A stretch of 36,677 nt of DNA from a virus, in the IMG/VR virus record IMGVR_UViG_3300033550_000017, positions 1 through 36,677 of that record; one strand, given 5' to 3'. Both the position numbers and the translations under genes were made by a program. How positions within the stretch are numbered: position 1 is the stretch's first letter; every line of letters begins with the position of its first letter. Positions 5,850 to 26,940 of this stretch are shown in pieces. The notes under the pieces were generated by a model. The model worked only from the letters and a program-made list of their open reading frames with translations. It was not told the origin of the DNA and did no database searches.

Positions 5850-6128
5850 TTAACTGTGTCGCCGGACGGCATCCACAATATGCTGTTTCAGTCCCGAATC
5901 TTCCCGTCGTTTTGGCGCAACAGGTTTCTCGTTTCCGATCTCAATCAATCGGTGCTGCCTCAGATGCTCTCGATGCTGGCGCCGACCATTGATCATCTCG
6001 CCAGTGGCCATCGACTTGTATGGGGTAATGTCCCCCATAACCATCGGCGCGTTCACCTCAGGGCGGTCGTATTCGTCAGCGGGAACGAGCTTGAGCGTCA
6101 CCGGGTCTTGGATATAGCGCGTTCTCAT
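5850..6128 (-). CDS. Conserved head-module protein (92 aa)
   Basis: The pattern MRTRYIQDP..LVPADEY, VMGDI.PYKSM..G and RRQHREHLRQH is familiar from small proteins encoded between portal and scaffold in many tailed phages. I know no assigned activity. The His/Arg-rich helix at about residues 50-65 may bind nucleic acid or metal, but there are no paired cysteines. The start is the ATG at 6128, which overlaps the previous TGA as ATGA. An in-frame start seven codons upstream is rejected on that basis. Confidence 0.65.
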   Translation of the reverse strand: MRTRYIQDPVTLKLVPADEYDRPEVNAPMVMGDITPYKSMATGEMINGRRQHREHLRQHRLIEIGNEKPVAPKRREDSGLKQHIVDAVRRHS

Positions 6129-6373
6129 TTTTGGCTCATCCGAGAGCACAGAGCCTGCACGGCATAGGTAACATCAATTTCTCCCTTACGACGTATACCA
6201 ATGCGAGAAAGTAGGCGCCGAGCATGATACTCAAATGCATGAGCAAAAAAACCAGGAACGCTTTTCACTGATGCAAAGAAATAATACTCAATAACTGGCA
6301 GCCCCAATCGTGCAAACTTACCGGGCTGGCGGCCATATATCGACCAGGGCCATGCTTTGTATGCTGGTTTCAT
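6125..6373 (-). CDS. Hypothetical protein (82 aa)
   Basis: This is a short protein rich in aromatic and basic residues (MKPAYKAWPWSIYGRQPGK, then HARRLLSRIGIRRKGEIDVTYAV). It has no recognisable domain. The ATG at 6373 overlaps the TGA of the 66-aa gene as ATGA and its own stop overlaps the next start the same way, which argues strongly for translation. It sits between portal and scaffold genes in the late module. The reading YFFASVKSVPGFFAHAF is only mildly hydrophobic and not a convincing membrane segment. Confidence 0.55.
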   Translation of the reverse strand: MKPAYKAWPWSIYGRQPGKFARLGLPVIEYYFFASVKSVPGFFAHAFEYHARRLLSRIGIRRKGEIDVTYAVQALCSRMSQK

Positions 6374-17726: not shown

Positions 17727-18139
17727 TTATGCCACCCTGGGATATGAGGGTCATCAGACCACTGAACACTATTCATGGCTCCGAAAGCCTGGATGCTTTC
17801 GATCAGGTCAGCCATATCCTTGACCCCTAGCGTGCGCGTTTGCTGGCCAAGAGCAACAACACCTTTCCCGTCAAGCGATGGCACCAGCTGCATGCGGTTC
17901 GTTTCTCGAAGCCAAGAATCCACCAACAGACGCTTCCAGTCTTCAACGCCAAGCTTGCGATCCATCCACTTCATTTGCGCCGCGATATCGCCACAAAGAG
18001 CATGTAGCTTGGCATTCTGGTTCAGGCTGCGGTTAGGCTCTTGGATAGTGACGAAGTGGCCATCAGGAGCCGTGAGCATGGCCTGCACCAACATTTGCCT
18101 GGTGGCGGGAGTTACGCGGATGCGTCGGTGTTCTGACAT
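17723..18139 (-). CDS. ninB: NinB/Orf-family recombination protein (138 aa)
   Basis: The sequence has the NinB hallmarks: EPNRSLNQNAKLHALCGDIA, KWMDRKLGVEDWKRLLVD, then a MQLVPSLDGKGVVALG and TRTLGVKDMADLIESIQAFG region. The family includes lambda Orf, a recombination mediator that binds SSB and ssDNA. Length agrees with the family. It overlaps the upstream HTH gene by 28 bases and the HNH gene by four. It probably works with the ERF annealase and SSB encoded on the other arm. Confidence 0.88.
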   Translation of the reverse strand: MSEHRRIRVTPATRQMLVQAMLTAPDGHFVTIQEPNRSLNQNAKLHALCGDIAAQMKWMDRKLGVEDWKRLLVDSWLRETNRMQLVPSLDGKGVVALGQQTRTLGVKDMADLIESIQAFGAMNSVQWSDDPHIPGWHK

Positions 18140-18336
18140 TTCGCTTCCCGTGCTTTCTTCGCCTGCTCCATCGTCAGGAGTGCTTGAAGGGACATTACCG
18201 TCCTGTGTAGCCCACCTGTGCGCATCCCACGGCTGATGAGCGATACCGTGGATTCGCTCAGCCCCGTATCCTTTGCGATGCGGTACTGAGACAGGCCCAG
18301 GGCCTTGAGTTGGTCGATCAGATTTTTAGCGTCCAT
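18112..18336 (-). CDS. Cro-like HTH regulator at the divergent switch (74 aa)
   Basis: Residues about 14-42 (GLSQYRIAKDTGLSESTVSL) form a classical helix-turn-helix, followed by a helix and a basic end (EQAKKAREAKCQ). It is the first leftward gene, beginning about 100 bases from a 9-bp inverted repeat that flanks the rightward promoter. It is thus a candidate to bind that operator and control both arms. It is too small to be a CI-type repressor with a cleavable C-terminal domain. Confidence 0.75.
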   Translation of the reverse strand: MDAKNLIDQLKALGLSQYRIAKDTGLSESTVSLISRGMRTGGLHRTVMSLQALLTMEQAKKAREAKCQNTDASA

Positions 18337-18437
18337 GCCTCATGATACTTTACCGCGCCGAAGCCATCAAGTAAGATGGGAACTAGATAGAACCGTGGCG
18401 AGGAGTGGAGTTGCCTCAGAGCTACAACAGATATATA
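18337..18437. promoter_or_regulatory. Leftward leader/promoter region
   Basis: No gene is present. On the minus strand TTGATG, 17 bases, then TATCAT ends six bases before the ATG of the HTH gene, so it would give an almost leaderless transcript with GAGG too close to the start. A TATATA stretch near 18431 is the alternative -10 and would lie next to the inverted repeat. Which one is used is unclear. Confidence 0.35.
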
Positions 18438-18467
18438 AGTTGAGATGGGCATAAAAATATCTCAACT
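18438..18467. promoter_or_regulatory. Operator candidate: 9-bp inverted repeat
   Basis: AGTTGAGAT and ATCTCAACT are perfect inverted 9-base arms with 12 AT-rich bases between, a centre-to-centre distance of two helical turns. The repeat ends five bases before the -35 of the rightward promoter and covers possible leftward promoter elements, as expected for an operator of the neighbouring Cro-like protein. Confidence 0.65.
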
Positions 18468-18472
18468 ATTGC

Positions 18473-18502
18473 TTGACAAATAGAAAGCCAGTCGTCTATA
18501 GT
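18473..18502 (+). promoter_or_regulatory. Rightward sigma70 promoter
   Basis: TTGACA (18473-18478), an 18-base spacer and TATAGT (18497-18502) make a near-consensus promoter. It drives the plus-strand early operon, whose first gene starts more than 300 bases downstream, leaving a long structured leader. Confidence 0.8.
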
Positions 18503-18575
18503 TCATTCAACGCAGCACGAAACGCACCGCTTAGGCCAAAGGCCAGCACCGCGAAGCTGCAAGTACCGCAAGACC

Positions 18576-18628
18576 GCTCTTTAACAACCAGCTAAGCGAT
18601 AGAACAGGCTCTATGTCCCTCTTGGGAC
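18576..18628 (+). promoter_or_regulatory. boxA antitermination site with two hairpins (nut/put-like)
   Basis: GCTCTTTAACAA at 18576-18587 is identical to the boxA of bacterial rRNA leaders, which recruits the NusB/NusE antitermination complex. Two small hairpins follow: ATAGA-6-TCTAT (18599-18614) and GTCCC-TCTT-GGGAC (18615-18628). The order resembles a lambda nut site, but no N-like Arg-rich protein is encoded nearby. An RNA- or host-factor-based mechanism is therefore likelier. Confidence 0.7.
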
Positions 18629-18683
18629 GCTCGGCCCCGGACGCACTCTCCACCGGAAGCGAAGTTTGCTCAAGACGAGAGAC

Positions 18684-18767
18684 GAGAAGACAGTTTGGAT
18701 ACCTTGGCCCGTAAAGCCCGGCTCCCGTTAGGGTGACTGAAAAACTAGGTATGCCGACTGTCTTCTC
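18684..18767 (+). ncRNA. Structured leader element C (11-bp closing stem)
   Basis: GAGAAGACAGT and ACTGTCTTCTC form a perfect 11-bp stem around 62 bases. Inside, ATACCT pairs with AGGTAT, and CCC-GTTA-GGG plus GGCCCGTAAAGCCC offer more hairpins. It lies in the untranslated leader between boxA and the first early gene. With the preceding hairpins it could form a put-like antitermination RNA or regulate the first genes. A weak hairpin (18783-18803) follows before the 51-aa gene. Confidence 0.55.
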
Positions 18768-18825
18768 CAGATTCATCTGAATGTGCCTTCTAAGAGGGCG
18801 CACCCAAATGAATTAGGGGATTGAT

Positions 18826-19025: not shown

Positions 19026-19301
19026 ATGGACTACCAGATTCACTGGCCCGCCAGCATCGACGTGTTGATCTACATAACGGACGGCGACCACCAGCAAGGC
19101 ACCGCGACGGTCAGCTTCAAGCCCGGCAAGGAAATTACCAAGCAAGACGTTCGTGAAGCCGTGGCGGAGTTTGAGCGCGACAACATGCCCCCGGGCTTCC
19201 GCTTGATGACGAAGCCTGAGGTGTGGGACTGGATTTGCCAGGACATGGCAGGCCGCGGCGCTCACTTCGCCATGCCGGGTGGCCCTGACTTCGACGACTG
19301 A
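19026..19301 (+). CDS. Early hypothetical protein (91 aa)
   Basis: An AAGGAGAA ribosome site precedes the ATG and shares the 12-mer AACAAGGAGAAC with the next gene's leader. The protein opens with a beta-like stretch (IDVLIYITDGDHQQGTATVS), continues with an acidic helix (ITKQDVREAVAEFERDN) and ends acidic (GPDFDD). There is no catalytic motif. High expression soon after infection is likely from position and ribosome site. Confidence 0.6.
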   Translation: MDYQIHWPASIDVLIYITDGDHQQGTATVSFKPGKEITKQDVREAVAEFERDNMPPGFRLMTKPEVWDWICQDMAGRGAHFAMPGGPDFDD

Positions 19302-19346
19302 TCCCGCTTCTTTCAGGATTCATACCGATTAACAAGGAGAACGAGA

Positions 19347-19619
19347 ATGGAATTACCGCGCAAGGTTTGGGTGCTGACGCCCTCATTCAAGCCGAAGGAA
19401 ATTGAGGTCGAGACATTCAAAACCAGCGGCATATGGGGCGACTGGTATCACATGGCATCAGGTAAGGGCTACCGCGCACGTGATGTGTACGAGTCGAAAC
19501 AAGACGCCATCGAGGGCGGCTTCAAGAAGCTTGAAGAGCGCGCTCAGTACCTCGACAAACAGCTAGAGCAGCAGGCCAAGCGCCGAGACGCTTTGATGAA
19601 AGCAAAGCTCAGCATCTAG
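19347..19619 (+). CDS. Early hypothetical protein (90 aa)
   Basis: MELPRKVWVLTPSFKPKEIE leads into an aromatic, glycine-containing core (SGIWGDWYHMASGKGYRARD). A long charged C-terminal helix follows that is likely a coiled coil (KKLEERAQYLDKQLEQQAKR). A strong ribosome site (AAGGAGAACGAGA) precedes the ATG. It is a small two-part protein of unknown role. The AT-richer flanks contain no other features. Confidence 0.6.
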   Translation: MELPRKVWVLTPSFKPKEIEVETFKTSGIWGDWYHMASGKGYRARDVYESKQDAIEGGFKKLEERAQYLDKQLEQQAKRRDALMKAKLSI

Positions 19620-19658
19620 CCTCTCCCTATTAGCAGCCCGAATGGAAAAGGAGAAGAT

Positions 19659-20045
19659 ATGACACCCGAACAGAAGATCAAGCAACTGATCCTGAACCTT
19701 CAGGCTCGCTGGTCCGGAGAGACCGCGCCTGATGTGAATGCGGAAAACATTGATGAGGTTTTCGACGCCGCCAACGAAGATTGGGCACTTCAAGACTCCA
19801 TCAACGAAATTCGCTGCTCAGGGATCGAGACGGGTCTTAAGTGCGATTGGTCGCGGCACTACGAAAGCGAAGCCGTCGCCATGCAGGCCGTAGATGGTTC
19901 GTGGGTGGGCTGGACCTACTGGTTTGGCGGGGGAAAGCACGGTGAGCCTGAAGCCATGCCGTGGATGGAGCATGCCTACGACGTTGATTGTGCGGAAGAA
20001 GTGAAGGTAGTCACTGTCAGGACTTTCACCAAGCCAGCGGCATAG
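19659..20045 (+). CDS. Early hypothetical protein (128 aa)
   Basis: The N-terminal helix MTPEQKIKQLILNLQARW is followed by an acidic segment and a Trp/Gly-rich part (DGSWVGWTYWFGGGKHGEPE), ending with a beta-like EVKVVTVRTFTKPAA. The middle (LKCDWSRHYESEAVAMQ) and the Trp-rich part recall small phage proteins of unknown function in early regions. AAAAGGAGAAG precedes the ATG. No activity is assigned. Confidence 0.6.
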   Translation: MTPEQKIKQLILNLQARWSGETAPDVNAENIDEVFDAANEDWALQDSINEIRCSGIETGLKCDWSRHYESEAVAMQAVDGSWVGWTYWFGGGKHGEPEAMPWMEHAYDVDCAEEVKVVTVRTFTKPAA

Positions 20046-20054
20046 GAGTTCGCC

Positions 20055-20222
20055 ATGACAACCACCCACTACGCAGCATCCTCCAGCAACGCAATGGCCA
20101 GCTGGTACCAGATGTGGGACCAGGCCGACGCTACGTACTGGGTAACGCTAGGCCGTGACGGCTGGTACTCGTTCGGTCTTGGCGTGATGGATGACTTCGG
20201 CAATCTGGTGAAGGTGAAGTAA
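20055..20222 (+). CDS. Early hypothetical protein (55 aa)
   Basis: MTTTHYAASSSNAMASWYQM and YWVTLGRDGWYSFGLGVMDD give a Trp/Tyr-rich small fold, possibly one beta-hairpin domain. GGAG is close to the preceding stop. It is the last clear gene before the gene-poor structured region. No family is recognised. Confidence 0.55.
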   Translation: MTTTHYAASSSNAMASWYQMWDQADATYWVTLGRDGWYSFGLGVMDDFGNLVKVK

Positions 20223-20250
20223 CGCGCTCAGGGCCGCGCAAGCCCTGAAC

Positions 20251-20338
20251 CTCCAAGGATGCGGAGCCTTTTATTCATTCGTTCCGCGAAAAAGCGCATG
20301 AGTCCCACAGCAGTACCGGTGGCTCCGCATCCTTGGGG
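20251..20338 (+). repeat. Element D: 16-bp perfect inverted repeat, extendable to 18
   Basis: CCAAGGATGCGGAGCC (20253-20268) and GGCTCCGCATCCTTGG (20321-20336) pair perfectly around 52 bases. Two further pairs at the base include a U.G that is valid only in plus-strand RNA. A 9-base direct repeat ATGCGCAGT (20343-20351, 20356-20364) follows. Confidence 0.85.
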
Positions 20339-20400
20339 GTGAATGCGCAGTGCTGATGCGCAGTAGCTTGAATTGGAATCGGGTGTTAAGGGCCTCGGGC

Positions 20401-20577
20401 ATGTCTGACACCAAGCCGGAGATTCAGCACCGGCCACCCCCACCCAAATCTCCCTGGCGCCGTGCAACAGTCGGCCGTCTCCCGGACGAAACCCGGGGTC
20501 CTCAAGTCGGAATCCTGATCGGGAACGCGATGAAGGCGCTGGTCATGCCTGAACCAGCAACGTGCCGGAGCAAGTAG
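20401..20577 (+). CDS. Doubtful small ORF inside the structured region (58 aa)
   Basis: An ATG with AAGGG upstream opens MSDTKPEIQHRPPPPKSPWR and ends at a TAG before the second arm of the 18-bp stem. Codon choice is not clearly unlike its neighbours, so it cannot be excluded. It is Pro/Arg-rich without a recognisable domain, and it overlaps strong RNA stems, which better explain the sequence. Confidence 0.25.
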   Translation: MSDTKPEIQHRPPPPKSPWRRATVGRLPDETRGPQVGILIGNAMKALVMPEPATCRSK

Positions 20578-20597
20578 AGCAGGGTTCCGACTTGAGG
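20500..20597 (+). repeat. Element E: 18-bp stem with one G.U
   Basis: CCTCAAGTCGGAATCCTG (20500-20517) pairs with CAGGGTTCCGACTTGAGG (20580-20597). The single non-Watson-Crick pair (U20513.G20584) is a wobble in plus RNA and would be A.C in the other strand. The 62-base interior contains the hairpin GCTGGT/ACCAGC. Confidence 0.85.
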
Positions 20598-20640
20598 GTT
20601 GTGAATAAGGCAGATCGGGTATCCACCCGTCCGTTCCCTC

Positions 20641-20701
20641 CTTGACCCAGTGGGAGTCTGCCGAAATAGATTGGGCACCCTCACCCACCGGCTGGGTTAA
20701 G
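20641..20701 (+). repeat. Element F: 10-bp stem with one G.U
   Basis: CTTGACCCAG (20641-20650) pairs with CTGGGTTAAG (20692-20701). G20644.U20698 is a wobble only in plus-strand RNA. The interior of 41 bases is rich in GGG and CCC runs that may pair further. Confidence 0.7.
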
Positions 20702-20946
20702 TCCGGTTGTCGAAAGCGGATGCCGTGTCACATGGTCCAAAAGGGGATCGGCACGGATGTAGCGAGTAGAACCGCAACGAGCGTGCAGCGCCGAGCGCGT
20801 ACGCAGCAGACGAGCGGAATCAATACGGCGGTGGAAGTCCGCGCCGGAGACGTAACCGGCACATTTCTAAGTTCCCCTCTTCCCCTAATTCTCCCGTGCA
20901 GGGTATGCCGGGGGAGAGCGGGGTCTTACCTGATTGGAGAACTGCG

Positions 20947-21297
20947 ATGAGCAAGATCAATCTGCCCGAGTTGCCCAGCCTGGGAAGTTGTGTCGTCAAT
21001 GAAGCTTGCTGGAAATTCATCGAGAACCTTCCCCACACCATACCGGGGCCGATCTTCAACGATCTGAAGCCGGCCATTTACGCAGCTTTGTGCCATGCGC
21101 TTCCCGCCTACGCCGAGCAGGCTGTACGCGAAGCTCTGGCGGCGCTGGAGCCGGTGGCCTACCTGAATGCCGAAGCGCTTGACCGGTTGCAAAAACCATA
21201 CGTCGCCGGTTGCGCTGCGGCGCTGGAGAACGCTCCTCGCGGCGGATTTGTGGCTATAGCCATCATCCCCAACCCCGACAAGGACCCGCCATGCTAG
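20947..21297 (+). CDS. Early hypothetical protein (116 aa)
   Basis: GGAG lies nine bases before the ATG at 20947. An in-frame ATG farther up (20896) lies in the structured region without a ribosome site. The protein is helical, with FIENLPHTIPGPIFNDLKPA, HALPAYAEQAVREALAALEP, and ends IAIIPNPDKDPPC. It is similar in style to modular phage proteins with short repeated units of unknown role. Confidence 0.6.
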   Translation: MSKINLPELPSLGSCVVNEACWKFIENLPHTIPGPIFNDLKPAIYAALCHALPAYAEQAVREALAALEPVAYLNAEALDRLQKPYVAGCAAALENAPRGGFVAIAIIPNPDKDPPC

Positions 21298-21389
21298 CCG
21301 CCCTCAAGCACATGCTGCACAACGCCTGGGCCATGCGCTGGTACTACGCAACCCTAATTATCCCGCTCGCGTGCGTTGTGGGGTGGTAG
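21291..21389 (+). CDS. Tiny membrane protein (32 aa)
   Basis: The ATG overlaps the preceding stop by seven bases (ATGCTAG). MLAALKHMLHNAWAMRW leads to one hydrophobic segment (YYATLIIPLACVVGW). Overlap and continuous operon spacing support translation, though there is no clear ribosome site, so it would depend on coupling. Confidence 0.45.
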   Translation: MLAALKHMLHNAWAMRWYYATLIIPLACVVGW

Positions 21390-21399
21390 GAGATAACCA

Positions 21400-21654
21400 A
21401 TGAGCAAGAACTATCTGCCTGCATACCCGGAGCCGCATCCTGTTGCTGGGCACCGCATGTTCAGCGCCTCTCAAGTAGAGGCGCATGTCAAAAAGGCAGT
21501 TTGTGATGCGCTGAAGGTGGCGGCTGAGATCTGTTCCGAAGAAGGCCGCGAATGGGACTCGGATGCCGTTATCACCGAGAAGAATTATGCAGAGCATTGC
21601 GCCCAGAGAATACGCACCATCATCCCGGAGAAAGATCATGGGGAGCCATCCTAG
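21400..21654 (+). CDS. Early hypothetical protein (84 aa)
   Basis: An N-terminal Pro-rich stretch with AYPEPHPVAGHRMFSASQVE is followed by a helix with conserved-looking residues (VKKAVCDALKVAAEICSEEG) and an acidic end. This arrangement is common among short phage early proteins (the FSAEQVE..VR.AL...A style). GGAG precedes the ATG. It overlaps the next gene by 17 bases. Confidence 0.6.
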   Translation: MSKNYLPAYPEPHPVAGHRMFSASQVEAHVKKAVCDALKVAAEICSEEGREWDSDAVITEKNYAEHCAQRIRTIIPEKDHGEPS

Positions 21655-21970
21655 ATTCACCTTCGACCCCCCCCAGCACATCTACGACGAGAAGTACGCA
21701 GAAGTCGCCAAGGCAATCGAGGCGGATCTGTTCAAGTGGCGGCACCAGATCGTCGAAGAACTCGGGCAGGAGCGCCACAACCCGGATGCTTGCGAGCTTT
21801 ACCACTTCGCATCAGAGGCAGACAAGCCCGAAGTGATTCTCAGACAGGCTCACGACGGGATCATGGGGCAAGCAGCCCAAGACATGGTGAAGCTGGCGAT
21901 AGGCCATCTTACCGACTACCAAACCAAGAAATTCGTTCGCGGCTTCTGGCCGGAATGGGAAAAATCATGA
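21638..21970 (+). CDS. Early hypothetical protein (110 aa)
   Basis: I chose the ATG at 21638, with GGAG nine bases upstream. The longer reading from 21563 overlaps the previous gene deeply. The protein is helical and acidic (HIYDEKYAEVAKAIEADLFK, KPEVILRQAHDGIMGQAAQD). A run of eight C encodes Pro-Pro near residue 10, a possible slippage site. The stop overlaps the next start as ATGA. Confidence 0.6.
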   Translation: MGSHPRFTFDPPQHIYDEKYAEVAKAIEADLFKWRHQIVEELGQERHNPDACELYHFASEADKPEVILRQAHDGIMGQAAQDMVKLAIGHLTDYQTKKFVRGFWPEWEKS

Positions 21971-22155
21971 GCATCAAATATCCGCCAGAGATTCTCGCAT
22001 TGATCGAGGTCTGCAAGTTTTTCCCCACCGACTCCGACATGGAAATGGCTGGGTGGTCAGAGGACTACATCAAACGAGCTGGCGATGCCTATGACGCTGC
22101 TCAGGAGGTTATTGCTAACTACGGCGGCACGACCTACTTCAGGGGACCTCAATGA
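21967..22155 (+). CDS. Early hypothetical protein (62 aa)
   Basis: MSIKYPPEILALIEVCKFFP and WSEDYIKRAGDAYDAAQEVI are two amphipathic helices, ending TTYFRGPQ. Both ends are coupled by ATGA overlaps, which supports translation strongly. No domain is recognised. Confidence 0.6.
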   Translation: MSIKYPPEILALIEVCKFFPTDSDMEMAGWSEDYIKRAGDAYDAAQEVIANYGGTTYFRGPQ

Positions 22156-22325
22156 AACGCCTGCTGACCTTCCTCAAAATCCACGGCCTCACGATTCTTT
22201 TCGGGGCCGTTTTTATTACTGCCACCTGCATTCTGCGTCCCACGCTCGACAAACTGGAAGAGGACCGGGTTGCGAAGGAAGGCGGAACCCGATACGCGGC
22301 AGGTGACAGCTATGGATCGCGATGA
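22152..22325 (+). CDS. Small membrane protein (57 aa)
   Basis: A short basic start (MKRLLTFLKIHG) is followed by a membrane segment at about residues 12-28 (LTILFGAVFITATCILRP) and a charged soluble tail. The ATG overlaps the previous stop as ATGA. It could be a signal-anchor protein with its tail in the periplasm. Function is unknown. Confidence 0.55.
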   Translation: MKRLLTFLKIHGLTILFGAVFITATCILRPTLDKLEEDRVAKEGGTRYAAGDSYGSR

Positions 22326-22485
22326 CGAAGCCGCCGCGCTGGCCTACCAGCAACAACTAGATCAACAGGAACAGGATCATGAAACACAGCGAGTCAGTGA
22401 AGTCTATCGCTCCGGCCCTCTTGGCTGCTCAGAAGGCTACGGAGTTCGCCAAGAAGGATGCCACGAACCCGCATTTCAAGAATAA
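22312..22485 (+). CDS. Possible small protein overlapping ERF (57 aa)
   Basis: AGGTGA lies six bases before the ATG. The first 25 residues (MDRDDEAAALAYQQQLDQQE) look like a real acidic, Gln-rich helix of the kind often encoded just before recombination genes. The second half is read in a shifted frame inside the annealase gene, over 107 bases, and looks random. It may be genuine with an overlapping end, or simply a fragment. Confidence 0.35.
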   Translation: MDRDDEAAALAYQQQLDQQEQDHETQRVSEVYRSGPLGCSEGYGVRQEGCHEPAFQE

Positions 22486-23041
22486 GTACGCCGACCTGCC
22501 CGCCGTCATTGAGGCCGTCAAACCGGCTCTGAACGCTGCTGGCATCGTGTACATCCAGACCGCCAGCCCGTCCGACGATAACCGCCTTCACCTGACGACG
22601 ATGCTGATGCACGAGTCGGGGGAGTGGATCTCCGACACGCTGGTTATGCCGCTTCCGAAGCAAGACCCGCAGGGGTACGGATCGGCGATGACCTACGCCC
22701 GTCGTTACGCTCTGGCGGCTATCACTGGCGTCTACCAAGACGACGATGACGGCAATGCGGCATCTGGTGCGGGAGAGAAGAAGGCGGCGGTTATCAAGCC
22801 GACCAGCGGGGCGATGGATGCCCTAGGGAAGGCCGCTCAAGCTCAAGCGCGGGATTTGGCCTCACTGATCCAGACGAATTTCAACGAAGGAAACGACTGG
22901 GCGGCATTCGAAGAATGGGACGGAATGGACGCTGATGTGGACTTCCGAACCGCCGTTTGGAGCCAGTTGGACAGCAAGGTCCGCGCCTACATCAAGAAAG
23001 CGAAAGCCGAGGCCGACAAACCCGCTACTCAAGGAGCCTAA
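22379..23041 (+). CDS. erf: ERF-family single-strand annealing protein (220 aa)
   Basis: The ERF signature is clear: PALLAAQKATEFAKKDATNP with HFKNKYADL (about 32-40), AVKPALNAAGIVYIQ, then DPQGYGSAMTYARRYALAAI (about 96-115) and GVYQDDDDDG-like acidic residues (about 117-125). The C-terminal third is a variable linker plus helix. The protein anneals complementary ssDNA during phage recombination and circularisation. It is directly followed by SSB, its usual partner. No dedicated 5'-3' exonuclease is seen. Confidence 0.9.
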   Translation: MKHSESVKSIAPALLAAQKATEFAKKDATNPHFKNKYADLPAVIEAVKPALNAAGIVYIQTASPSDDNRLHLTTMLMHESGEWISDTLVMPLPKQDPQGYGSAMTYARRYALAAITGVYQDDDDGNAASGAGEKKAAVIKPTSGAMDALGKAAQAQARDLASLIQTNFNEGNDWAAFEEWDGMDADVDFRTAVWSQLDSKVRAYIKKAKAEADKPATQGA

Positions 23042-23042
23042 T

Positions 23043-23456
23043 GTGGCAAACGATTTGAACCGTTGCGAATTCATCGGGAGGCTAGGCAAGGATCCTGAGA
23101 CGCGCCACTCACCCGATGGTGCAGCTATCTGCAACTTCTCCCTGGCAGTTGGTTGGAAGACTTCCGGCAAAGAAGGCACCGAATGGGTACGCATTGTCGC
23201 CTTCGGCAAGCTGGCTGAGATTTGCGGCGAGTACCTGACCAAGGGCAAGCAGGTCTACGTGTCTGGTCGGATGACGACTCGGAAATGGACGGACAAGGAC
23301 AGCGGCCAAGATCGCTACAGCACTGAAATCGTCGCTGACCAGCTTCAGATGTTGGGTGGCAAGAACGACGAATCTGAGCAGCGCCCGACCTCTAAGCCAG
23401 CAGCGCGTCAGGTCGCACCAAGCACCAGCGACGACCTGTCGGACATACCTTTCTAG
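23043..23456 (+). CDS. ssb: Single-stranded DNA-binding protein (137 aa)
   Basis: An OB-fold SSB: NRCEFIGRLGKDPETRHSPD, FSLAVGWKTSGKEGTEWVRI and GKLAEICGEYLTKGKQVYVS. The tail is disordered and ends in the acidic DDLSDIPF tip that recruits SSB partners. The start is a GTG at 23043 with AGGAG seven bases before it. The ATG two bases earlier is in a frame that stops at once. It protects phage ssDNA and probably contacts NinB/Orf and ERF. Confidence 0.92.
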   Translation: MANDLNRCEFIGRLGKDPETRHSPDGAAICNFSLAVGWKTSGKEGTEWVRIVAFGKLAEICGEYLTKGKQVYVSGRMTTRKWTDKDSGQDRYSTEIVADQLQMLGGKNDESEQRPTSKPAARQVAPSTSDDLSDIPF

Positions 23457-23464
23457 CCTTCCCC

Positions 23465-23527
23465 GGCAGCTCCCCGCACAACCCACCTGGAACCCTCAGC
23501 ATCCGCTGGGGGCTGCCACCCTATTAC
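23465..23527 (+). repeat. Element G: 10-bp stem between SSB and the next gene
   Basis: GGCAGCTCCC (23465-23474) pairs with GGGGGCTGCC (23518-23527). The single wobble is U.G in plus RNA. The interior has 43 bases. No T-run follows, so it is not a normal terminator. It may stabilise or process the mRNA downstream of SSB. Confidence 0.6.
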
Positions 23528-23541
23528 TTGGAGAAATGCGA

Positions 23542-23691
23542 ATGCCTACGCACATTTGGGTAACCGAAGTTCTTAAGGGCGGCAAGTGGCATTTCCTTGT
23601 ATGCCACAAGACTCGCCATATAGCGCGCCATTCAAAGAAGTTTGTATTCACTGGCACAACTACGCGCATCCGCAAGTACGTCCCCGCCTAA
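23542..23691 (+). CDS. Small basic protein (49 aa)
   Basis: MPTHIWVTEVLKGGKWHFLV, then a Lys/Arg/His-rich part (TRHIARHSKKFVF) ending RIRKYVPA: a compact basic protein that may bind nucleic acid. I chose the second ATG (23542) because GGAG is eight bases away. The first (23536) is too close. Function is unknown. Confidence 0.5.
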   Translation: MPTHIWVTEVLKGGKWHFLVCHKTRHIARHSKKFVFTGTTTRIRKYVPA

Positions 23692-23701
23692 CGGAGCAGA
23701 T

Positions 23702-23866
23702 ATGGACCTCGCGCAACAACTCGAACAAGCCGACGCAGACCGCGTTGACGGCATCACGACCGACAAGCAGTACCTGGAGCGCCGTGCCGAGATTGTGGCG
23801 CGGGCGTTAGACCTTGATGACGCATATGACCGATACAAGGAGCGTGCGCTCCTGAGGGGGATGTGA
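23702..23866 (+). CDS. Small acidic helical protein (54 aa)
   Basis: MDLAQQLEQADADRVDGITT and ERRAEIVARALDLDDAYDRY are two charged helices. GGAG is six bases before the ATG and the stop shares a base with the next start (TGATG). No family is recognised. Confidence 0.55.
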   Translation: MDLAQQLEQADADRVDGITTDKQYLERRAEIVARALDLDDAYDRYKERALLRGM

Positions 23867-24003
23867 TGGAAAGCGATCTTTCTGACCTGTCACGTAGAGA
23901 AGACGACTTGGACGACGGGTGCGTAGGTCCCAATCCTATCGCGTGGTTCTTCGGGATTCTCGGCGCTTATGCCGTCCTTTCGATCATCTGGATACTGATA
24001 TGA
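23866..24003 (+). CDS. Small C-terminally anchored membrane protein (45 aa)
   Basis: An acidic, hydrophilic first half (SDLSDLSRREDDLDDG) is followed by one membrane span at about residues 25-45 (IAWFFGILGAYAVLSIIWIL). Start and stop overlap neighbours (TGATG, ATGA). The layout fits a tail-anchored inner-membrane protein. Function is unknown. Confidence 0.55.
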   Translation: MESDLSDLSRREDDLDDGCVGPNPIAWFFGILGAYAVLSIIWILI

Positions 24004-24395
24004 CCCAACAATGGAAGCTTGTCCCGGTTGAGCCGACCGAAGAAATGGAGGCGGCGGCCGTTGGCGACTACGAGCAGTCTGGCGGCACGTATCGGAAGTC
24101 AGCCTACGCCGCCATGCTCGCCGCTGCCCCCACCCCTCCCGCCAGCGCACAGGACGATGCGAAGCACAAGCGGCCGGACTGGATGACGTGCGCAATGCGT
24201 CACCGCATGGTGACGGACAACCTGCGATTCAGCGCATCGCATATGCGCGACAAAGAAAAGCGCTGCCGAGCCGCCTACCAGCAGGAATACATGGGCGCAC
24301 CTATGCGCTGGCTGGCGGGCGTGTACGCCGATGCTGCGGCGGTGTTTGAGGCCAAGCTCGCCGCCCTTTCGGCCTCTCAGCAGCAGGAGGGGTAG
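24000..24395 (+). CDS. Modular early protein of the WKLVPVEPT type (131 aa)
   Basis: MTQQWKLVPVEPTEEMEAAA followed by YRKSAYAAMLAAAPTPPASA is a widespread N-terminal module of phage early proteins with no assigned function. The linker AAAPTPPA is a typical recombination joint. A helical, Cys-containing module with YQQEYMGAPMRWLAGVYADA closes it. The ATG overlaps the preceding TGA as ATGA. Mosaic construction is likely. Confidence 0.65.
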   Translation: MTQQWKLVPVEPTEEMEAAAVGDYEQSGGTYRKSAYAAMLAAAPTPPASAQDDAKHKRPDWMTCAMRHRMVTDNLRFSASHMRDKEKRCRAAYQQEYMGAPMRWLAGVYADAAAVFEAKLAALSASQQQEG

Positions 24396-24397
24396 AC

Positions 24398-24688
24398 ATG
24401 GGCGACATGGGAGATTTCTGGCGCGATGTGAAGCCAGCCATGAAAGAGCGCAGCCAGCAAAAGCGGGCCGGCAACCGCGAGCAGTCCGCGCGATCTCTGA
24501 CGGACGCTGGCATCCAGTTCCTTAGCCGGAACGCCGGGGCGCATTTGATCGTGATCGGCGCTAACGGCCACACCTACGACTTCTGGCCTGGCACCGGCCT
24601 ATGGCGCATGCGCGGCAGCACCAGGGACCATCGCGGCGTGCGCAGCCTGATCCGTGCCGCCCAGCCCACCACCAAGGAAAGGACATGA
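24398..24688 (+). CDS. Early hypothetical protein (96 aa)
   Basis: A basic helix (FWRDVKPAMKERSQQKRAGN) precedes a compact mixed part: LTDAGIQFLSRNAGAHLIVI, HTYDFWPGTGLWRMRG, ending in a basic tail. It resembles a recurrent phage early domain in which a short beta-sheet ends in a GTGLW.. turn. No known activity. Its stop overlaps the next start as ATGA. Confidence 0.6.
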   Translation: MGDMGDFWRDVKPAMKERSQQKRAGNREQSARSLTDAGIQFLSRNAGAHLIVIGANGHTYDFWPGTGLWRMRGSTRDHRGVRSLIRAAQPTTKERT

Positions 24689-25755
24689 CCGACAACAACA
24701 CCCCCGCCCCGGCGCCGAAGGATGCCGTGCTGACGGATGACGAAATCCTCGACGCCATTGCTGTATCAGCGAACTTTGACGAGTTAGATAGGGCCGCTTG
24801 GAGTCCCGAGTCACTGGCGCTGGGGCGCGCCATCGAATCCGCCCTGCTGTCCAAGCTGGGCGCCCCTGTAGGCGGTGAGCGGGAGACGACCGCACCCGTT
24901 ACTGGCGTGGCACAGTACACGAAGAAGCCCGTAACAATCAGTGCAATCCGTTGGAACGGGAAGAATCTGCGGCAAGTCATCGCCTTCACTGATGGGCCTC
25001 CCGAAACTCGCACGATTCACGCAGGGATGGCCTGGGAAAGCTACGAAGGCCTTGTCGGTCGCGGAGGCCTGAAAATCTATACGCTGGAAGGGGAAATGCT
25101 CGCCAATAAAGGCGACTGGATCATACGGGGGGTCAAAGGCGAGTTCTACCCCTGCAAGCCGGACGTATTCGTTGCTACTTACGAACCGGCAAGCGCCCCT
25201 GTAGCCGATGAGCTGCCCGAGTGGGAGCAAATCTCGGCCAAGCTGGAGCGCGACGAGACGCTAACCCCGCTGGAATTGTTCGTCTATGACAACGAACCGG
25301 CAGGCGACGACGACGCTTGGCGCGACCAACTTGCCGCTGCCCTGGCAAGCGCCCCTGTAGCCGGGAACGCACTTCAGGTGGCGACCGTTGCCATGCAGCT
25401 TATCCGCCGTTCGGCGCTGAACGCCTTCGACCGCCAGCAACACGACAAGCTGGTTCAAGACTTTGCCGCGCTACACGAGCGCCCGGCCAGCGAGGCGCAA
25501 TGCTCCTGCCCCAGCGGCGACGGCTCCCTGCGTCATCCGTGCTCGGTGCACCAGGCCAGCGAGGCGGTGCGCGATGCCGAAGACGCCGCACGGTGGCGAT
25601 GGGCCACAACTGTCGATGACAACGCTGAAACGCTCCATTCCATCATGCTGTGCCACGGCGGCGACCAGCGGAAGATCAATGAGCGCGCAGACTTTTACCG
25701 CGCAGCCCTGTCCGCGCAACCGGGCGCGCAGAAGAACGGAGGCGGCGATGCCTGA
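24685..25755 (+). CDS. Mosaic early protein of several short phage modules (356 aa)
   Basis: The protein looks assembled from separable modules: an N-terminal part (about 1-65), a module with ISAIRWNGKNLRQVIAF and GDWIIRGVKGEFYPCKPDVF known as a stand-alone phage domain (about 80-170), an acidic helical module (about 175-215), a helical module (about 230-265), a Cys/His-containing stretch (CSCPSGDGSLRHPCSVH) and a C-terminal helix. Joints repeat the linker APVA or ASAPVA, and two of them are encoded by identical 20-base sequences. No single function is recognised. Recombination at the linkers probably built it. Confidence 0.65.
   Translation: MTDNNTPAPAPKDAVLTDDEILDAIAVSANFDELDRAAWSPESLALGRAIESALLSKLGAPVGGERETTAPVTGVAQYTKKPVTISAIRWNGKNLRQVIAFTDGPPETRTIHAGMAWESYEGLVGRGGLKIYTLEGEMLANKGDWIIRGVKGEFYPCKPDVFVATYEPASAPVADELPEWEQISAKLERDETLTPLELFVYDNEPAGDDDAWRDQLAAALASAPVAGNALQVATVAMQLIRRSALNAFDRQQHDKLVQDFAALHERPASEAQCSCPSGDGSLRHPCSVHQASEAVRDAEDAARWRWATTVDDNAETLHSIMLCHGGDQRKINERADFYRAALSAQPGAQKNGGGDA
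25188..25363 (+). repeat. 20-bp direct repeat encoding an inter-module linker
   Basis: GGCAAGCGCCCCTGTAGCCG occurs identically at 25188-25207 and 25344-25363, 156 bases apart and in frame. A shorter related copy, CGCCCCTGTAG, lies at 24861-24871. All encode the ASAPVA or GAPVG joint. Confidence 0.9.
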
Positions 25756-26008
25756 TATCCGCGTCAACTTCGGCGGCGGCGTGGCGATCCTGACCGTCTC
25801 CGGCGACTACAAGCCCGGCGATCCGCCGCCCACCGGCTACAGCGCGAGAGAGGATTGGTTTAACGCGCAGATCAAGGGTGGTCTGCGCCAAGTTGAATGC
25901 CCGCGCTGCCGCCGCTGGGCGTTCCCTCAAGAGCTCGCACCGGGCGGTCGCATCTGCAAGCCTTGCGCCCACCCCGGCCACAAGGATGGAGGGGCTGTCT
26001 ATGAATGA
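25748..26008 (+). CDS. Putative zinc-ribbon early protein (86 aa)
   Basis: A beta-like start (DIRVNFGGGVAILTVSGDYK) and YSAREDWFNAQIKGGLRQ are followed by C-x-x-C twice (CPRCRRW, CKPCAHPG), a likely zinc ribbon. Overlap with the previous gene is eight bases, in another frame. It may bind nucleic acid or a host protein. No family name can be given. Confidence 0.6.
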   Translation: MPDIRVNFGGGVAILTVSGDYKPGDPPPTGYSAREDWFNAQIKGGLRQVECPRCRRWAFPQELAPGGRICKPCAHPGHKDGGAVYE

Positions 26009-26231
26009 CCTGATCACACGCCTGCGCGAGAACGCGGACTTGGACGCAGCAGAAGGCGGCAACCCGGAAGTGATCGCGCTGGAGTTGGAGGCCGCCGATG
26101 TTATAGAGCGCCTCACCGCCCAGCTCCGCGAGTGCGCCGAAACTCTCGGGGCCGACCTGATCGACGAGCAGCGCGCCATGCGGGCCTATGCCGATGCAAC
26201 GAAGCTGCTGGATGAATTGAAGGAGAAATGA
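26001..26231 (+). CDS. Coiled-coil early protein (76 aa)
   Basis: MNDLITRLRENADLDAAEGG, then LELEAADVIERLTAQLRECA and a helical tail: a nearly continuous amphipathic helix of a type often seen in early phage regions. GGAGGGG lies upstream. The stop overlaps the following ATG as ATGA. Oligomerisation is likely, function unknown. Confidence 0.6.
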   Translation: MNDLITRLRENADLDAAEGGNPEVIALELEAADVIERLTAQLRECAETLGADLIDEQRAMRAYADATKLLDELKEK

Positions 26232-26569
26232 TGCGTAAGGAAGACTTAGACGCCATCGCAGAGCGCCAGCCGTATTGTCGGAACTTCGGGGAGAGCGTCA
26301 GCTTGAGCCGAGCCGAAAGGGATGGGCTGGTGGCACTGGCGAAGAAGGCAGTAGTGTGGAGGCGATGCGATAAAGAAGTTCCAGATACCGATGTCTGGCT
26401 GTTGGTAGCCGGGATGTTCGATGGTCCGCATGATTGGCGAACTCGTCAGGGCTTCTATTCTGGCGAGACCAAGACATGGCATGTATCGAATGCTTCCTGG
26501 AAGCCTATTTATTGGGGCTACATGCCAATCTTTAACGCAGACGCCGAGATGGCGAAGGAGGGAACGTGA
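26228..26569 (+). CDS. DUF551-like early protein (113 aa)
   Basis: The second half shows WRRCDKEVPDTDVWLLVAGM, GFYSGETKTWHV and W.PIYWGYMP, the pattern of DUF551 (a small phage domain with conserved Trp and a P.TD..VL start). The N-terminal 40 residues are a helix, possibly an added module. AAGGAG precedes two adjacent ATGs; the first overlaps the previous stop as ATGA. Function unknown. Confidence 0.65.
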   Translation: MMRKEDLDAIAERQPYCRNFGESVSLSRAERDGLVALAKKAVVWRRCDKEVPDTDVWLLVAGMFDGPHDWRTRQGFYSGETKTWHVSNASWKPIYWGYMPIFNADAEMAKEGT

Positions 26570-26940
26570 AGGTAGCTGATCTGGAAGGAGCACTGCTGGA
26601 CGCTTGGGTTGTCAAGGCGTTGGGCGGGTATCGAGGTCCTTACCAACTGGTCAAAGATGGGCGGCCAGAGAAGAACTGTCTGATCTTTCCTGACGGCGTT
26701 CCGTTCCGCGCGACCACCGGCAACCTGATGCCGTCGTCCGATTGGTCGCACGGTGGACCCATCATCGAGCGCGAGCGGATCCGCCTACACCACAGAAGCG
26801 ACGGAATTCCCTGGGCGTCCCAGATATTTGTCGATGGGAACTCAGTGATGCCGATATACGGCTATGGCGATACGCCCCTGATCGCAGCCATGCGCGCCTA
26901 CGTGGCCAGCAAGTACGGAGTAGAAGTACCCGATGAATGA
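26566..26940 (+). CDS. NinX-like protein, DUF2591 (124 aa)
   Basis: MKVADLEGALLDAWVVKALG at the start, FRATTGNLMPSSDWSHGGPI in the middle and DTPLIAAMRAYVASKYG at the end match DUF2591, the lambdoid NinX family, whose role is not established. The start is GTG, overlapping the previous stop as GTGA. It is the last clear gene before the terminator. A 19-codon frame begins inside its end (26933-26992) and is probably not significant. Confidence 0.78.
   Translation: MKVADLEGALLDAWVVKALGGYRGPYQLVKDGRPEKNCLIFPDGVPFRATTGNLMPSSDWSHGGPIIERERIRLHHRSDGIPWASQIFVDGNSVMPIYGYGDTPLIAAMRAYVASKYGVEVPDE

Follow-up and report, generated by a model that had tools for sequence, protein, structure and literature searches.

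How does a compact phage early operon come to hold some 720 nt in which no gene can be recognized? The question is posed by positions 20223-20946 of the IMG/VR virus record IMGVR_UViG_3300033550_000017, the whole 36,677 nt of which are referred to hereafter as the window. The record is that of a tailed phage, with amidase, tail, portal, terminase and primase/helicase genes all carried on the minus strand and an early operon on the plus strand (from about 19026 to 26940, encoding an Erf-like annealing protein at 22379-23041). The stretch lies inside this operon, bounded by the stop of the upstream ORF at 20222 and the next plausible ATG at 20947, which falls within ORF 20896-21297 and would open an early gene (20947-21297, plus strand) with no family found. 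Our gene test comprised the eight ORFs inside or overlapping the stretch (shorter ORFs lie outside that set), none of which could be assigned to a family, six having been compared with Pfam and PHROGs and two with PHROGs only (best E about 0.2); the view of the first-pass annotation that there is no convincing gene here is thus borne out. No Rfam model reached its gathering score in the window, which also lacks tRNA and tmRNA (ARAGORN, Rfam), and between 20000 and 21200 neither GOLLD, ROOL, group I/II introns nor self-cleaving ribozymes were matched even at E<=10 (ribozymes likewise failed to match family F1, described below, in 12 loci at E<=1). Introns, ribozymes and tRNA/tmRNA were therefore rejected as identities.

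The annotation had described the stretch as highly structured, and against shuffled sequence this holds: the plus-strand minimum free energy is -318.1 (shuffled mean -281.1, z -4.0, with none of 20 shuffles as good), that of the minus strand is -296.5 (z -2.85), and among 49 consecutive 724-nt windows of the record (plus strand, 12 shuffles per window) the stretch ranks first for stability (z -4.65). The third most stable of the 49 (18051-18774, z -3.5) overlaps the divergent control region that precedes the early operon. Most of the fold signal comes from a pair of long stems (20249-20340, z -6.4; 20499-20598, z -3.35), seven other pieces having z values between -1.8 and +0.5, and fixed 120-nt windows within the stretch are no more stable than those elsewhere (plus-strand mean 0.37, n=7, versus -0.23, n=298). 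With the energy signal residing mostly in two hairpins and short fixed windows uninformative, thermodynamics alone is weak evidence, and it is the comparative evidence that decides. As to strand, the annotation had relied on G.U pairs in the long stems; one such pair is indeed found in each of the two when read on the plus strand, but the counts over the whole fold are alike on both strands (21 of 229 pairs on the plus, 25 of 235 on the minus), such that the argument lends slight support. The plus strand is better supported because relatives sit co-directionally between genes. Counts of G.U versus A.C in the stems of F1 (14 versus 81 for outer cells, 66 versus 37 for inner cells to the first break, two sets that are by design not comparable) are not usable as strand evidence, since we read the A.C excess as a fifth outer-stem position that is mostly unpaired.

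Comparison with related phages leads us to conclude, with high confidence, that 20223-20946 is a modular non-coding RNA array of at least four separately inherited structured modules together with further hairpins. The search for relatives covering the stretch in full yielded locus L005 alone, identical over 808 of 808 bases and regarded as the same phage, and related phages carry common pieces beside different neighbours. L008 shares 20681-20861 with the window (95.6% identity), L107 matches it in three separate blocks (20335-20361, 20415-20500 and 20678-20769), L006 shares 20591-20684 and L004 20601-20676, and L029, L087 and L119 each have 20711-20860. Blastn against phages returned 20711-20859 in Bordetella phage IFTN6, 20770-20860 in IFTN2 and, at looser settings, 20711-20862 in Bordetella phage PHB04; in IFTN6 and IFTN2 the match stops immediately ahead of a tRNA-Arg, and the PHB04 match is found downstream of a tRNA/tmRNA cluster. 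F1 is present and the 20770-20862 block absent in L107, the opposite being true of L002 and L007, and the arrays of L008, L107, L006, L029 and L119 have further hairpins in common that are absent from the window. By sequence comparison, the units that separate are family B with its linker, a Methylophilales-1 relative, F1, and the 20770-20862 block. Pieces occurring in other combinations across relatives argue for independent gain, loss and shuffling, and not for one RNA.

The annotation had suggested that this may be a large RNA like GOLLD or ROOL, or a distant member, and several features do accord with a single ornate RNA spanning some 720 nt: the whole-stretch fold (z -4.0 to -4.65), the length of the gene-free block within a compact operon, and the stem arms that adjacent modules have in common (20333-20340 between hairpin H1 and family B; 20591-20598 between module D and the Methylophilales-1 relative), overlaps that count against an array insofar as they would permit alternative pairings in one longer RNA. 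GOLLD and ROOL are likewise long structured non-coding RNAs of phages and prophages, a general resemblance judged from parts of PMC12286853; the stretch differs from them in being modular, in matching neither covariance model, and in having relatives with no conserved single long architecture. Given that these relatives, L005 aside, hold only separate and recombined pieces, we regard the single RNA as highly unlikely. What survives of the earlier proposal is structured non-coding sequence in the early transcript region, its structure being conserved in relatives.

The modules themselves differ widely in how far they can be followed (all on the plus strand). H1 (20249-20340) is a long hairpin with a 20-bp stem, for which no homologue appeared among the 20 of 45 matching records that were listed, nor in the pieces common to nine related loci. 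Between family B and module D lies a small linker hairpin (20455-20487), conserved in L107 together with the family B 3' end (88.5% identity over 20415-20500) and folding no better than shuffled sequence (z 0.47). Module D (20499-20598) is long-stemmed and has no phage homologue by blastn at E<=1. Its segment 20506-20591 matches DUF3800-X (RF02984) at 20.9 bits (E 0.23), short of the gathering score of 38.2, and this identity is doubtful. By eye, there are strands similar to those of DUF3800-X (GAAAG-GAUG and GCAAGUAG), and F1 too contains GAAAGCGGAUG and GCGAGUAG; models do not detect this resemblance, the 12 F1 loci searched having no DUF3800-X hit at E<=1 and the matches of the F1 model (E<=10) not including module D. 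DUF3800 genes lie near DUF3800 RNAs, and the association here is weak, a DUF3800 gene being present at any position in two of the 30 records searched and missing from that of the window. In the parts of the two sources that concern it, DUF3800 has a predicted RNase H fold and is linked to putative ncRNAs (PMC10910872), and the updated families of Rfam 15 include DUF3800-I and DUF3800-IX (PMC11701678).

The 5' arm of the next module (20591-20685) overlaps the 3' arm of module D. This module aligns end to end with the Methylophilales-1 RNA (RF03011, model positions 1-103; 52.1 bits, E 8e-10) and differs from the curated family in scoring below its cut-off of 79.9 bits, in being phage-borne and in lying within an array. 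The DUF3800 and Methylophilales-1 motifs reportedly both come from a paper of 2017. Homologues of this module occur in L004, L006 and L009-L017; the viral ones score 55.8 bits (L004) and 44.5 bits (L006), and a pattern search returned nine genome loci, mostly of Methylotenera, of which all five that were scanned (L009-L013) exceed the cut-off. Downstream of F1 there follow a hairpin module (CCGCAACGAGCG ... GCAGCAGACGAGCGG, 20770-20820), present without F1 in L002 and L007, and two small hairpins (GGUGGAAGUCCG and GCCGGAGACGUAACCGGC, 20826-20862), both recovered among relatives in alignment A5; relative to L008 the 20845/20858 pair has changed between C-G and U-A, and the block matching through 20862 stops 4-6 nt before tRNA-Arg in L001, L002 and L007. 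A GC-rich hairpin (20882-20923; z -1.8 for 20880-20935) precedes the next gene.

Family B (20333-20443, plus strand) is framed by an outer stem (20334-20341 with 20435-20442) that encloses a hairpin (20345-20361), a variable middle (20362-20412) and a second hairpin (20415-20434). In an alignment of 58 sequences (A4, dereplicated at 85% and hence chosen to differ) the outer stem covaries, with double changes in six of nine pairs, and the structure as a whole contains 81 double-change cells versus 26.3 in shuffled alignments. The loops of the two conserved hairpins are complementary (GCUGA/UCAGC), and we propose from this that 20352-20356 may form a kissing pair with 20424-20428; four of its five pairs never vary, and an almost invariant pair is one for which covariation does not prove pairing. 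The middle (41-87 nt) is unlike across the 58 sequences and its folding does not surpass that of shuffles (mean z -0.34; z below -1.5 in 9 of 58). No two loci were found whose middles differ while both flanks are nearly identical, the closest being L184/L219 (flanks 0.92 and 0.75, middle 0.51), so that replacement of an inner part, as described below, is established for F1 only.

The ends of family B are common to RNAs of Klebsiella, Erwinia and Pseudomonas phages, and its pattern occurs in 71 viral contigs. One Klebsiella copy is matched by 166 phage records, 39 of them across 80% or more of its length, and, mostly partially, by 930 of 5426 E. coli genomes, where among the matches listed one covers at least 80% and the other 14 are at both ends only. 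Pantoea phage PA-1 and Pseudomonas phage ZC08 have the 3' hairpin only, no full element being found in PA-1; in the former (L155, 1235-1300) an int-alpA RNA match above cut-off (44.4 bits) overlaps this piece. Family B gave no Rfam match in the window or in 12 further loci (L149-L152, L154, L165, L168, L170, L184, L188, L195 and L208), the one overlap there being in L188, with the margin of an adjacent tRNA. A tRNA is close to family B in four of the seven named phages examined and also in L029 and L087; a general link to tRNA genes was dropped, any tRNA being found by ARAGORN in six of 60 loci scanned of the 71. In the 80 family B loci examined, F1 is also present by pattern in five (the window, L005 of the same phage, L022, L029 and L087), and L107 has both by eye; over wide sets of loci, each family is thus mostly found where the other is not. 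In L022 (oriented, 456-716) they form a tandem, each with almost the same leader (CAGTCYCCAGCCGTGTTGG) ahead of it, as though a common type of sequence served family B and F1 as insertion site or as driver.

F1 (20701-20777, plus strand) consists of an outer stem closing on two conserved strands (20711-20722 and 20759-20769) that surround a variable hairpin, in the order outer stem, CGAAAGCGGAUG, hairpin, short linker (mostly AC, AU or U), GCAGCGAGUAG and outer stem. Model R1 scores the window copy at 46 bits (E 6e-13), the window being itself among the 75 sequences of the model. An exact core pattern was found in at least 120 viral contigs, versus one of 399 and none of 398 bacterial genomes (two overlapping samples), and F1 therefore appears, on this pattern, to be restricted to phages; a covariance-model search of nine bacterial genomes, in which only 150 candidates were scored per genome, returned no match. 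A core will seem invariant when a strict pattern is what finds it, and we accordingly rescanned with half of the core free. When the 5' half and outer stem were fixed, the 3' half was present in 79 of 82 loci (66 with GCAGCGAGUAG, 10 with GUAGCGAGUAG and three with further AGUAG variants). Fixing the 3' half instead, we found the 5' half in 127 of 131 loci, exact in 98 and otherwise as a near variant, though some of these loci had originally been collected by the exact pattern. The GAA opposite AGUA presumably resembles a G-bulged loop-E motif, a reading weakened by the variants CCAAAG and CAAAAG (16 of the 131 loci), which break the GAA. No second copy of F1 was seen in any of the loci examined, which are parts of contigs.

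Covariation, for which the annotation had suggested that homologues be searched, is found in F1 as in family B. In alignment A1 (75 sequences) five of the six outer-stem pairs change on both sides, and the whole structure contains 124 double-change cells versus 45.7 in shuffled alignments (none of 500 as high) and 26-43 in slid controls. This bears directly on whether the stretch is a non-functional remnant of decayed genes, a reading that the want of any ORF with a family match might encourage. Conservation and covariation across phages contradict it for family B and F1, as does the regular placement of F1 between genes, and we consider it extremely unlikely for the stretch, the contradicting evidence so far coming from family B and F1 and not from H1 or module D.

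F1 also keeps a consistent position with respect to genes. Among the 168 unique elements, a co-directional ORF of 50 aa or more stops no further than 25 nt upstream in 130, an ORF of 45 aa or more begins 8-60 nt downstream in 137, and both are present in 111, the remaining 57 lacking one or both close co-directional ORFs under simple ORF calling. The element mostly lies 8-15 nt after the stop codon, with gaps of 9-11 nt commonest (first set, 124 loci). The upstream proteins (50 scanned of 56 dereplicated, six omitted) include DUF669 (seven), SSB (five), Enc34 SSB (one), RecT (one) and several PHROG ssDNA-binding families, whereas those downstream are diverse (55 scanned of 58, three omitted). 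An acidic tail ending in P[FIL] is the SSB-type tip, and it terminates 39 of 130 ORFs upstream of F1 versus 68 of 3327 background ORFs (six-frame, at least 100 aa). Among eight named-phage stretches examined, F1 was found in one (MW202710, reached via blastn), where the annotated order is exonuclease, SSB, a near-variant F1 and NTP-PPase; in phage DSL-LC04 a plain hairpin occupies the same gap. The repeated occurrence of F1 after genes for unrelated ssDNA-binding-type proteins points to a common, testable step in phage early expression.

This setting raises the alternative that F1 serves solely as an intrinsic attenuator or as a stabilizer of mRNA 3' ends, with no specific partner. Its GC-rich outer stem followed by T-rich bases, its short distance past the stop codon and the simple hairpin of DSL-LC04 would all suit such a role. 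A plain stabilizer has no need, however, of two conserved strands (12 and 11 nt), and a T-run of at least four at +5 to +20 after the element, although enriched over background, is seen in only 27% of 169 elements (background 5%); an attenuator or stabilizer alone seems to us rather unlikely.

The variable hairpin of F1 changes in a manner of its own. The comparison took in 131 pairs of F1 loci in which both 300-nt flanks exceed 80% identity (the pairs are not independent), its reference being the mean identity of 0.56 between unrelated F1 hairpins. With flanks of at least 99% identity the hairpin was the same in 46 of 46 pairs; at 95-99% it was the same in 12 and random-like in four; at 90-95% the same in 12, intermediate in one and random-like in 12; and at 80-90% the same in one, intermediate in eight and random-like in 35. 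In L072/L300 and L290/L295 the 16 nt before, the 34 nt after and both conserved strands are identical and the hairpin alone differs, while in L043/L127 and other pairs the outer stem differs as well. Apical sequences moreover recur in phages with unrelated flanks (30 twelve-mers common to at least three groups). Gradual drift would not easily give wholesale swaps of this kind, which point to exchange and argue for an F1 hairpin that is either under diversifying pressure or freely exchangeable; full replacement between close phages is the pattern expected of an arms race, here at the RNA level.

Such replacement invites a reading in which the modules are cut from the early transcript and act in trans on host or rival-phage RNAs, the replaced F1 hairpin or the variable family B middle supplying specificity. 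The strongly variable interior that a constant frame encloses in each of two unrelated families, different F1 hairpins in phages with flanks more than 90% identical, shared apical sequences where flanks are unrelated and the T-rich bases 3' of F1 are all consistent with this. Antisense matches to the own locus, on the other hand, show nothing beyond the control (7.84 versus 7.54 nt for F1, n=122; 8.24 versus 8.36 nt for family B, n=46), with none of at least 13 nt in either set; the variable part of F1 is itself a closed hairpin, and its tight placement between genes suggests a local role. We accord this reading, and the source of specificity that goes with it, a minor though appreciable chance.

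The reading we prefer combines the array with protein docking and, taken as a whole statement, is in our judgement somewhat favoured; the docking mechanism on its own, whose function is inferred, is tentative. The array would be transcribed together with the early genes, and each module would fold alone and present a putative protein partner, most likely a host RNA-binding factor, with an internal loop or a pair of loops that does not vary. For F1 the docking site would be formed by CGAAAGCGGAUG and GCAGCGAGUAG, conserved strands inside variable stems and hence a putative binding site. That F1 is placed co-directionally speaks for a function exerted as RNA, and the ssb-type context with the plain hairpin of DSL-LC04 argues for a role at the message junction; the enrichment of T-runs after the element likewise supports a local role. 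In most phages F1 may act in place between an upstream gene (often of ssDNA-binding type) and the next gene, where it would shield the 3' end of the upstream message and set how much transcription or translation continues, its apical hairpin being the diversifying part exchanged among phages. The F1 of the window does not adjoin an SSB gene, so a local role cannot be general, and that most modules are thermodynamically ordinary weighs against a docking array.

More speculatively, and with only a small chance of holding, the two families may exemplify a class of RNA built as a handle with interchangeable heads, in which an invariant protein-bound core carries a hypervariable hairpin (F1) or middle (family B) exchanged as an allele between unrelated phages. 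If so, the variable head would make the RNA act strain-specifically in conflicts between phage and host or between phages, with several handle/head families gathered into arrays by some phages. Both families are common in phage sequence and, on the searches made here, appear widespread and uncatalogued: where tested against Rfam 15 neither has a match (for F1, 12 loci at E<=1), such that annotation reliant on Rfam would miss both. Literature searches of titles and abstract openings, including the core strings (sequences are seldom text-searchable), returned no description of either, nor is one given in the relevant passages of PMC12197685, PMC9004378, PMC13192938, PMC10910872 and PMC11701678.

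Some known systems offer partial parallels. AgvB, AsxR and the Pas sRNAs, as described in part of PMC13192938, are likewise small RNAs of prophages (lambdoid) that sometimes lie near tRNA genes; family B differs from AgvB and AsxR in its closing stem framing two conserved hairpins and has no match to Rfam, which holds both. The Pas models are apparently outside Rfam, and the likeness of family B to Pas is by description only (PMC13192938, in part). Non-coding modules are packed together in phage tRNA clusters too, and some relatives of the window modules adjoin tRNAs, whereas the window has none. Such clusters can contain extra stable RNAs, as with RNA C and D of T4. A region of Bordetella phage PHB04 (L003, 1984-4690) that contains a single annotated CDS (114 bp), a permuted tmRNA (RF04321, 104.5 bits), three tRNAs and F1 is probably another RNA array. 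In L027 (6508-6595) an anti-hemB-like RNA match, sub-threshold at 37.8 bits, ends about 30 nt before F1. Bordetella phage IFTN6 (L001) has a C4 antisense RNA above cut-off (6161-6248, 52.8 bits) and a sub-threshold C4 target match at 6047-6100. Limnohabitans phage DC33 (L143, PQ492659.1) is filed under Inoviridae, yet has 39 kb and a peptidase lysis gene, so that its taxonomy line looks wrong.
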